DNA of 63,218 bases from Chromatiaceae bacterium (GTDB lineage: Bacteria > Pseudomonadota > Gammaproteobacteria > Chromatiales > Chromatiaceae), in the NCBI GenBank assembly GCA_024639005.1, contig JAHEJD010000010.1, positions 1 to 63,218 on the forward strand, given 5' to 3'. This document shows positions 34,677 through 37,002 of this stretch, in pieces. The stretch's first letter is position 1, and the number at the start of each line of letters is the position of its first letter. The notes beneath the pieces were generated by a model, which was given only the letters and a program-made list of their open reading frames with translations, was not told where the DNA came from and made no database searches. Position numbers and translations under genes: made by a program.

Positions 34677-35873
34677 ATGAACCCCGACCTGGACAAACTT
34701 CAGCCCTACCCCTTTGAGAAACTGAATGCCCTCAAGGCGGGCACTTCATCGACGGCGAAACCGCACATCGCGCTGTCGATCGGCGAGCCGAAGCATGCCA
34801 CACCCGAACTCATTACGGCAGCGTTGCAGCGGCACCTGGGCCCAGGTCTCGCCAGCTATCCGATGACCAGGGGGATCCCTGAGCTGCGCCAGGCAATCTG
34901 CGAGTGGTTGTCGCGGCGTTTCTCGCTACCATCCGATTCGCTCGATCCGGAACACCATGTGCTGCCGGTGAACGGCACGCGCGAGGCCCTGTTCGCCATT
35001 GCCCAAGCTGTCGTAGACCGCGCGCGACGCGCCGTCGTGGTGTCACCAAACCCTTTCTACCAGATCTACGAGGGTGCAGCGCTACTGGCAGGCGCCACAC
35101 TGCACTTCGCCCCCTGCCTGAGCCAGAACGCCTACCTGCCGGATTTTGACGCCGTGAGCCCGCAGACCTGGACAGACTGCCAGCTGCTGTATCTGTGTTC
35201 GCCCGGCAATCCCACTGGCGCGGTGATGTCGCAGCAGCGACTGCAATGGCTAATCGATCTGGCCGAGCGCTATGACTTCGTGATTGCCGCCGACGAATGC
35301 TACTCGGAGATCTATTTCGACGAGGTTCAACCACCGGTCGGTCTGCTGCAGGCGGCCGCCGCCATGGGCAACACCGACTATCGACGATGCCTGGCGTTTC
35401 ACAGTCTGTCCAAGCGTTCCAACGCCCCGGGTCTACGATCCGGCTTTGTCGCCGGCGATGCGACTGTACTGGCCGAGTTTCTGCGCTACCGCACGTATCA
35501 TGGCTGCGCGCTGCCGCTGCAGCATCAACATGCCAGCATTGCGGCATGGCAAGATGAGACGCATGTGCGCGAGAACCGCCGGCTGTACCGTGAAAAGTTC
35601 GCTGCGGTGCTCAAAACGCTCGATGGCTGCCTGGATGTGACCGCGCCCGATGCCGGCTTTTATCTGTGGCCGAGGACGCCGATCAGCGACGAGGATTTCG
35701 CCCGCGAGCTGTATTCAAAGCAGCAAGTGACCGTACTGCCCGGACGCTATCTATCGCGCACGGTGGCCGGCGTCAATCCCGGCGCCGGGCACGTGCGGAT
35801 GGCCTTGGTGGCCGGCGAGGCCGAGACGGTCGAGGCCGCTCGACGCATCAAGGAATTCGTAACCCGCCTTTGA
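34677..35873 (+). CDS. dapC: Succinyldiaminopimelate aminotransferase
   Basis: PLP enzyme of the succinylase branch of diaminopimelate/lysine synthesis. The 398-residue class I/II aminotransferase opens MNPDLDKLQPYPFEKLNAL, the usual DapC N-terminus. PLP contacts include the YLCSPGNPTGAVMSQ region, AADECYSEIYF, and the Schiff-base Lys in SLSKRSNAPGLRSGF; the late Arg region is RMALVAG. DapD and DapE lie just downstream, so the substrate assignment has strong context. The stop codon lies 6 nt before the nested-repeat element at 35880. Confidence 0.93.
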   Translation: MNPDLDKLQPYPFEKLNALKAGTSSTAKPHIALSIGEPKHATPELITAALQRHLGPGLASYPMTRGIPELRQAICEWLSRRFSLPSDSLDPEHHVLPVNGTREALFAIAQAVVDRARRAVVVSPNPFYQIYEGAALLAGATLHFAPCLSQNAYLPDFDAVSPQTWTDCQLLYLCSPGNPTGAVMSQQRLQWLIDLAERYDFVIAADECYSEIYFDEVQPPVGLLQAAAAMGNTDYRRCLAFHSLSKRSNAPGLRSGFVAGDATVLAEFLRYRTYHGCALPLQHQHASIAAWQDETHVRENRRLYREKFAAVLKTLDGCLDVTAPDAGFYLWPRTPISDEDFARELYSKQQVTVLPGRYLSRTVAGVNPGAGHVRMALVAGEAETVEAARRIKEFVTRL

Positions 35874-35879
35874 ACTCTA

Positions 35880-36142
35880 GTGGGCTGCTTGGTAAGTTCG
35901 GTAACACTCAGCCGATCCACAAGCGTCATCGGCAAGGCTCGCGAGCGCCGGACTAGCCGTTGCTAATTCAAGCGAGCGAAACGCAGGCGATGGCGCTTGT
36001 GGACCGGCCCGAAGGGAGCCCCGCTACTTGGCCAATACAGCGTTGCACTTCTTGAAAAGGGCCTGCCATTCCCTGCGAAGTGCGCCTTATCTTGGCCAAG
36101 TAGCGGGGCTCTGAGAGTAACCGAACTTACCAAGCAGCCCAC
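35880..36142. mobile_element. MITE-like element with nested inverted repeats
   Basis: A 263-nt element with no transposase gene. The terminal inverted repeats are perfect over 23 nt (35880-35902 and 36120-36142) and continue with two mismatches to 32 nt; they begin GTGGGCTGCTTGGTAAGTTC. Inside are two further inverted repeats: arms 35916-35931 and 35988-36003 (one T/C difference), and perfect 19-nt arms 36017-36035 and 36092-36110 around a shorter 7-nt pair (36045-36051, 36077-36083). Folded, the whole forms a closed stem with two side arms. No clear target duplication was found. It fills the gap between dapC and dapD almost exactly. Confidence 0.85.
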
Positions 36143-36164
36143 GAGACACCGCGAGGAGAACCTC

Positions 36165-36986
36165 ATGAGCAACATCCAGGCCATTATCGGCGATGCCTTC
36201 GAAAACCGCGCCGATATCACGCCGCGCAACGTCAGCACACCGGTACGCGATGCCGTCGTGGAGGCCATCGAGCAGTTGGACCGCGGCGAGATCCGCGTCG
36301 CGGAAAAGCGCGACGGTGCCTGGGTCGTCAACGACTGGGTAAAGAAGGCCGTCCTGCTGTCGTTCCGCATCAACGACAACGACTTCATCAAGGGCGGCTT
36401 CACGAACTATTATGACAAGGTGGCGTCGAAATACGCCGATTACAGCTCACGCGAATTCCGTGACGCCGGCGTCCGCGTGGTGCCGCCAGCCACAGCGCGC
36501 AAAGGCTCGTATATCGCATCCAGCTGTGTGCTGATGCCCTCCTACGTAAATATTGGCGCCTTTGTCGATTCCGGCACCATGGTCGATACCTGGGCCACCG
36601 TCGGATCCTGCGCGCAGATCGGCAAGAACGTGCATCTGTCGGGCGGCGTGGGCATCGGCGGCGTTCTGGAGCCACTGCAGGCCGCACCGACGATTATCGA
36701 GGACAACTGTTTCATCGGGGCACGCTCCGAGGTCGTCGAGGGCGTCATTGTGGAGCAAGGCTCGGTGATCTCGATGGGCGTCTACATCGGTCAGTCGACG
36801 CGGATCTACGATCGTGAGAACGATGAGATCATCTATGGACGAATTCCGGCAGGCTCGGTGGTCGTCTCCGGCAATCTACCCTCGAAGGAGGGCAAATACA
36901 GCCTGTACTGCGCAGTGATCGTCAAGCGCGTCGACGAAAAGACGCGTTCAAAGGTCGGCATCAACGAGCTGCTGCGCGATATCTAG
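36165..36986 (+). CDS. dapD: 2,3,4,5-tetrahydropyridine-2,6-dicarboxylate N-succinyltransferase
   Basis: Succinylates tetrahydrodipicolinate, opening the succinylase branch to meso-DAP and lysine. From the ATG at 36165 ([20 protein letters not shown]), preceded by a strong GAGGAGAA site, it is 273 residues (E. coli 274). The C-terminal left-handed beta-helix shows the repeats [18 protein letters not shown] and [16 protein letters not shown]. The same frame is open for another 56 codons upstream, but that part lies inside the repeat element and is not homologous to DapD. Confidence 0.97.
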
Positions 36987-37002
36987 TGTCCTGGAGCACG
37001 AC

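Follow-up and report, generated by a model that had tools for sequence, protein, structure and literature searches.

A transposase-less mobile element with apparent IS630-type ends and a two-arm core in the dapC-dapD gap of a Chromatiaceae bacterium

The short gap between dapC and dapD of a Chromatiaceae bacterium is occupied by a mobile element of 263 bp that carries no transposase gene (positions 35880-36142 of the window, as the whole analysed stretch of 63,218 nucleotides is called here). It is probably an IS630-type mobile element whose internal part, a core of two hairpin arms, is under selection as a single strand.

The terminal repeats, reported in the first-pass annotation as perfect over 23 nt and 30/32 over a longer span, were re-measured with the same result (32 nt within 35880-36142, pairing 30/32, the first 23 nt perfect), and an outer inverted repeat of 36 nt (35876-35911/36111-36146) pairs at 92%. 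Both of the inner repeats described there are present, the stem of arm A extending over 21 nt (90%) and that of arm B, which had been given as 19/19, measuring 20 nt (100%) (Table 1). The RNA fold predicted for 35875-36170 reached -173.3 kcal/mol, against a mean of -105.1 (sd 5.4) for shuffled sequences (z -12.6), and none of the 200 shuffles was as low, indicating that the structure is not due to chance; this check, which had been proposed beforehand, gave the anticipated shape, a single closed stem bearing two arms. With its 263 bp, its ends pairing at 30/32 and no transposase gene, the element is MITE-like, and the only frames of at least 100 aa over it are a dapD extension on the + strand and one that enters from dapD on the - strand. 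The nested design goes beyond that of a plain two-ended MITE, as had been remarked.

Table 1. Features of the element and its flanks, in window coordinates
Feature	Position	Strand	Basis
dapC, upstream gene	34677-35873	+	TIGR03538, 646.9 bits
Left TA of target CTAG (35877-35880)	35878-35879		C-TA/G frame also in other copies
Whole element, 263 bp	35880-36142		repeats and copy search
Left terminal inverted repeat	35880-35911	+	inverted-repeat search
Arm A, stem 35911-35931/35988-36008	35911-36008	+	hairpin motif on + strand, about 35929-35990
Spurious in-frame dapD extension via right half of element	35997-36164	+	frame listing; start in relatives
Short inter-arm linker	36009-36015		within conserved GCCC-GAA-GGGAGC
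Arm B, stem 36016-36035/36092-36111	36016-36111	-	hairpin motif on - strand, 36034-36093
Right terminal inverted repeat	36111-36142	-	inverted-repeat search
Right flank, GA in place of expected TA	36143-36144		sequence read
dapD, downstream gene	36165-36986	+	TIGR00965, 482.7 bits

A search of the own draft genome (3.2 Mb in 155 contigs, 95.8% complete) with the element gave 17 matches, which resolved into 11 copies of three subtypes: the window copy, one copy at 94%, one truncated by a contig end, six of subtype B and two of a third subtype. The subtype-B copies, each of 263 bp and at 80% to the window element, include five that are letter-identical over the whole length and a sixth that differs at one base, and this near-identity therefore points to recent spread. 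Among other genomes of the same genus, dapC and dapD were both matched in seven (G001-G004 and G006-G008; neither gene was matched in G005, which is hence outside the count), and the element is absent between the two genes in 7/7 of these readable genomes, the gap from dapC stop to dapD start measuring 27 nt in G003. Because of the 11 copies, five of them identical, and of the gap left empty in the relatives, the element is mobile. The genome-wide copy search and the comparison of gaps, both suggested in the first-pass annotation, thus bore out its description of a transposase-less mobile element, and a single copy conserved at the locus, which it had named as contrary evidence, is the opposite of what was found. 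The 263-bp unit was matched in 11 of the 56 genomes searched as relatives, the own genome included.

Other forms were also observed. A lone subtype-B end in the own genome (G000:C31:29426-29454, L047) has the CTAG, with no second end or arms recognised nearby; it was rejected as an autonomous partner, no transposase being recognised in the adjoining frames. Similarly, two ends about 1.17 kb apart in another genome (G007:C86), considered as an autonomous element, proved to be a pair of ordinary copies with a 138-aa frame between them. Versions with a single arm, about 165-210 bp long, were seen at L211 and L213 (both of G007, in which either arm may be the one retained), L079 and L072, and longer versions of about 290-360 bp, with extra hairpin inserts in one arm, at L138, L143, L097, L095, L160, L082, L067 and L074.

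Copies are framed C-TA/GTGGGC...GCCCAC/TA-G, the slashes marking the element borders, and judged by sequence these ends and this target are of the IS630/Tc1-mariner type. ISY100, an IS of that group, is alike in its TA target, duplicated on insertion; of 39 of its insertions studied in vitro, 34 had entered a TA and duplicated it, AA/TT was the duplicated target in two, and in three a TA on one side was matched by a lone A on the other (PMC2170065). The window copy has TA on its left and GA on its right flank, and TA stands on both flanks in 6/10 intact copies of the own genome. Over 114 elements, TA was found on both sides in 59, on one side in 30 and on neither in 25, many of the latter being of a TAGGG type whose border was misplaced by the script. 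Three of the six near-identical subtype-B copies (L006, L007 and L008) have TA on one flank and TT, AA or GA on the other. For one-sided TA in near-identical copies, mutation alone seems unlikely, and one TA was perhaps carried in; the non-TA targets of ISY100 were duplicated on both sides or had lost one base (PMC2170065).

A partner IS was found in Candidatus Thiodiazotropha sp. 3502H_Th2 (G064). Its open transposase frame of 362 aa (P0001) matches the NCBIfam IS630 model (NF033545, 259.6 bits) and Pfam DDE_3, and is bracketed by ends 1186 bp apart that match those of the two-arm elements of the same genome, 19 of the 22 compared bases being the same. This IS (L242), read through, is without arms; it shares its ends with the two-arm elements and differs from them by its gene. 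The genome holds at least 150 arms, every one of the 150 candidates scored there being an arm, and of 40 stretches taken around arms the ends were found in 37, with TA on both sides in 34, on one side in 1 and on neither in 2, the script's ends being out of register in the last two. In the main class, of 264 bp, all 24 copies read CTA/.../TAG, with a median difference of 4 bases. Because of the ends, the TA target and this partner IS in another genome, we infer that the mobiliser is an IS630-family transposase.

An enzyme acting in trans had been suspected in the first-pass annotation, and the IS630 assignment gives that idea a candidate, but no such gene was found in the own genome: DDE_3 had no match in the 95.8% complete draft and no P0001-like gene was matched at E 1e-40, and the ends of the own subtypes show similarity, not identity, to those of L264, an IS of another genome. 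Of 19 element-bearing genomes, 8 had a DDE_3 match, which exceeded the curated cut-off in 7. Relatives of P0001, among them ones annotated as ISAzs31 and ISRjo2, occur in 22/369 gammaproteobacterial genomes (E 1e-40), and ends beginning (C)TAGTG were readable at 20 of 30 such loci, the other 10 being without convincing ends. When IS630 ends were compared with 42 element ends, 4 of 15 ISs did better than all 200 shuffles and 11 did not. Arms were found in 9/22 genomes with a P0001-like gene against 103/347 without one, and the two are not clearly linked. Moreover, IS ends and recovered element ends differ in G125, G195, G198, G269, G324 and G368; in G388, G336 and G402 one or the other was unreadable. 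The elements therefore outlive their enzyme, or use other IS630 types, or other families.

Under the last of these options the same core would be mobilised by transposases of several unrelated families, and the lineage would be defined by the core instead of by the ends. Ends of the types TAGGGTCTGTTGACGTTTCA and GGGCGTGTCGTCATAAGAT (L149, L343, L334, L332, L145 and L098) and AGAACGTGTTTACGATCTC are in fact unlike IS630 ends and accompany arms that are recognisably the same; ends of the first type occur in Pseudomonas, with close forms in Halomonas and Azotobacter plasmids. This explanation is nonetheless rather unlikely, since no IS of another family turned up as a partner and the odd ends may belong to further IS630 types. 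The search for a partner IS was negative for the TAGGGTCTGTTGACGTTTCA-type and for the TAGGG-type ends alike.

The core itself was characterized by an alignment (A1) of 34 chosen elements, namely 21 of 28 de-duplicated ones and 13 more, with 7 elements that have extra inserts or odd ends left out. These elements, with ends as unlike as CTAGTGGGCTGCTTGG, CTAGTACCCCGTTTCA and TACTAAGACAATCG, could be aligned over their length, and for 85 of the 96 pairs predicted in their common fold both sides were changed in at least one sequence. Between the ends follow, in order, a closing TCAG/CTGA, arm A, the linker GCCC-GAA-GGGAGC and arm B. The apices of the two arms, brought into the same orientation, show one motif, GCAAGGCGCGnnnCGCAGGGAATGGCnnnGCCCTTTCCAAGnAnCGCAACGCnGC, which lies on the + strand in arm A and on the - strand in arm B, and in which AGGC and AAC are nearly invariant across the 57 arms of set A2 (57 of the 68 arms from A1, 11 near-duplicates left out). 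At the 15 arm pairs, 93.7% of cells pair, the shuffled mean being 74.5%; the covariation score of the arms was 0.556, with 0.06-0.13 for slid structures, and none of 500 shuffles scored as high. On these alignments, a two-arm core is common to elements with quite different ends. In Rfam, the best match for window positions 35000-37000 reached 26.2 bits against a cut-off of 89, and 12 element-bearing loci yielded tRNAs only; among open-licence PMC papers, no paper was recognised as describing the two-arm core. A permissive regular expression for arms was dropped, its 3005 matches being mostly false by eye.

Selection on the duplex alone predicts equal numbers of G.T and A.C leftovers in a stem, because each of them is the other on the opposite strand. 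The outer ends are even in this respect (20 G.T, 22 A.C). Arm stems were chosen by the unpaired anchor letters only, which gave 135 distinct stems; 134 of them had four or more Watson-Crick pairs out of 7 and were counted. On the motif strand these held 826 Watson-Crick, 62 G.T, 8 A.C and 42 other cells, a G.T:A.C ratio of 62:8 (binomial p 1.8e-11), and 59 cluster representatives gave 29:5 (p 4e-5), shared descent making both p-values optimistic. The excess of G.T is weaker when all arm columns of A1 are counted, a setting in which the fold program has a preference for G.T on the + strand: the ratio is 74:24 in arm A and, on the motif strand, 48:56 in arm B, where 33 A.C come from one conserved column, without which it is 48:23. 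Since G.T is kept and A.C avoided on the motif strand, and the outer ends are even, it is apparently the folded motif strand, either RNA or single-stranded DNA, that is under selection.

Compensatory changes can also arise without selection, by template switching in hairpins, and the element could accordingly be a MITE with functionless arms, whose changes stem from hairpin arms being copied onto each other in replication or repair. Such copying should be strand-neutral, yet the leftovers on the motif strand are strongly biased, and the unpaired letters AGGC and AAC are conserved across the 57 arms, so that functionless arms appear improbable. It would be more improbable still for a REPIN-like element to be at hand, moved as single-stranded DNA by a Y1 transposase (RAYT or IS200/IS605-like) that reads the arm hairpins. 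The arms resemble REPINs in forming a pair of inverted hairpins that share a motif, a single-strand fold is indicated here too, and Y1 genes were found in 7 of 8 searched genomes. The own genome, with its five identical copies, nevertheless gave no Y1 or RAYT match and such a mobiliser was rejected there; the ends and the TA target suit IS630, of which a same-ended member exists in G064.

As for the locus, dapC and dapD belong to the lysine pathway, the NCBIfam matches span nearly the full length of both, and an ArsC-family gene and dapE lie downstream of dapD. Six nucleotides separate the dapC stop (35871-35873) from the element, and 22 nt separate its end from the dapD ATG, the same coordinates as first read, and the dapD ribosome site GAGGAG (36153-36158) falls outside it. 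The open frame 35997-36986, which runs from the right half of the element into dapD and had been flagged as misleading for start calls, was found and judged spurious: the predicted start of dapD is the ATG at 36165, not 35997, because the ATG of relatives corresponds to 36165 and has no element ahead of it. The stretch 35750-36250 showed no consensus resembling a promoter or a terminator, and the element would form part of, and fold in, any dapC-dapD message. That it is native to the locus, a structured dapD leader or regulator, and not a mobile element, as its position in an operon gap, its strong predicted fold and the free ribosome site could suggest, has hardly any probability left and was rejected, since the site is empty in 7/7 readable same-genus genomes, which on this comparison refutes an ancestral leader, and 10 further copies lie at other loci of the same genome. 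Any effect on dapD, such as the leader role suggested in the first-pass annotation, would be a later one.

The distribution of the motif was surveyed with a covariance model (R1) built from A2, for which matches in the genomes of origin arise by construction; the arm B motif of the window copy scored 71.8 bits. Matches (E <=1e-4) were found in 112/369 gammaproteobacterial genomes and 88/272 genera, with copy numbers that are lower bounds, at most 14 candidates being scored per genome. A phylum-wide draw of 398 genomes gave 83 with a match, 41 of Gammaproteobacteria (the own included) and 42 of other classes. Of these 42 out-of-class genomes with arms, 33 belong to one family (f207) whose genomes are mostly small; that family is perhaps a second home, or a case of transfer. 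A scan of genome contigs for the loop matched at least 113 stretches, and the organisms named in the titles of those listed are ones that we take to be gammaproteobacterial. The loop pattern had 0 exact matches in IMG/VR, and the window element had no blastn match in plasmids or phages. For a Pseudomonas relative (L149), 4 plasmids matched 80% or more of the length and 2 phage records only 15%, with no match in E. coli genomes, and L099 had no match in plasmids. One relative, on a P. aeruginosa PA83 plasmid (L368:3001-3269), lies between two co-directional genes, beginning 5 nt past one stop and ending 29 nt before the next start, a placement much like that of the window copy.

Copies are also placed in a particular way relative to reading frames. 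An open frame of 120 codons or more ran up to 70 of 193 element borders, and in 45 of these 70 it was in register to be ended by the border TAG, in which the TA of the target is followed by the G of the element; a few of the borders may be off by one repeat, and an element can enter the count with both of its sides. At the 57 unambiguous borders, 36 frames were ended by TAG and 21 were not, as compared with 91 versus 181 (91/272) at unambiguous CTAG sites elsewhere in these loci (Fisher p 4e-5, odds ratio 3.4). Copies thus occur in excess at amber stops, the stop being restored by the element, a bias that may be plain selection against gene damage. Examples in the own genome are L004, L005, L006, L008 and L011.

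Several known repeats resemble the element in part. RUP, ERIC and Correia are likewise short, palindromic, intergenic and without a transposase, and RUP is held to be moved by IS630 with duplication of TA; they differ in measuring about 105-160 bp and are not known to contain an internal hairpin motif in two inverted copies. REP, BIME and REPIN sequences with RAYT share one kind of hairpin in inverted order and differ from the element in its length of about 263 bp, its long ends, its TA target and the lack of Y1 in its genome. The Pseudomonas fluorescens repeats R0, R2, R6, R178 and R200, with listed sizes of 50-352 bp, are alike, by description, in being intergenic and foldable, in the inverted repeats of some that match IS ends, and in a bias to gene tails (PMC2718517). 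Foldable MITEs are described from the sulfur-oxidising gammaproteobacterium Candidatus Thiomargarita nelsonii, one kind of which the authors likened to Correia and IS630; by that description, neither their direct repeats (10 bp; TATAG) nor their hairpins are like those of the element (PMC4853749).

For an IS630-type element with a selected single-strand core, the following course can be proposed. The element was inserted into the short dapC-dapD gap, as the empty gaps of relatives show, probably at a CTAG as in the frame of the family. A transposase would bind the ends and cut and paste at TA, and the first G and last C of the element would restore CTAG on both sides. Because each strand bears the motif once, RNA transcribed or DNA displaced in either direction would carry one correctly folded motif. 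By way of a factor of the host or of transposition, this may help the element to spread, or to be tolerated, in gene clusters that are transcribed. It is a tentative proposal, possible although we would not count on it, that the arms are an undescribed structured module, of RNA or single-stranded DNA, on elements that switch ends among IS630 types, perhaps also other families, and that they recruit a host factor. If true, the motif on each strand would let the module work whichever way it is transcribed or unwound, and the host factor would aid spread or shield host genes, leading to a life inside operons and at amber stops.

For annotators, the element explains a falsely long dapD start and also TAG stops at element borders. 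As a non-autonomous element in which selection would extend from the ends to an internal part, it is a case open to testing, and the variety of ends found with one core raises the question of whether such cores change their transposase. With matches in 112/369 gammaproteobacterial genomes and in other classes of the phylum, and no Rfam match at threshold in the loci scanned, the core would be a common unnamed folded repeat.
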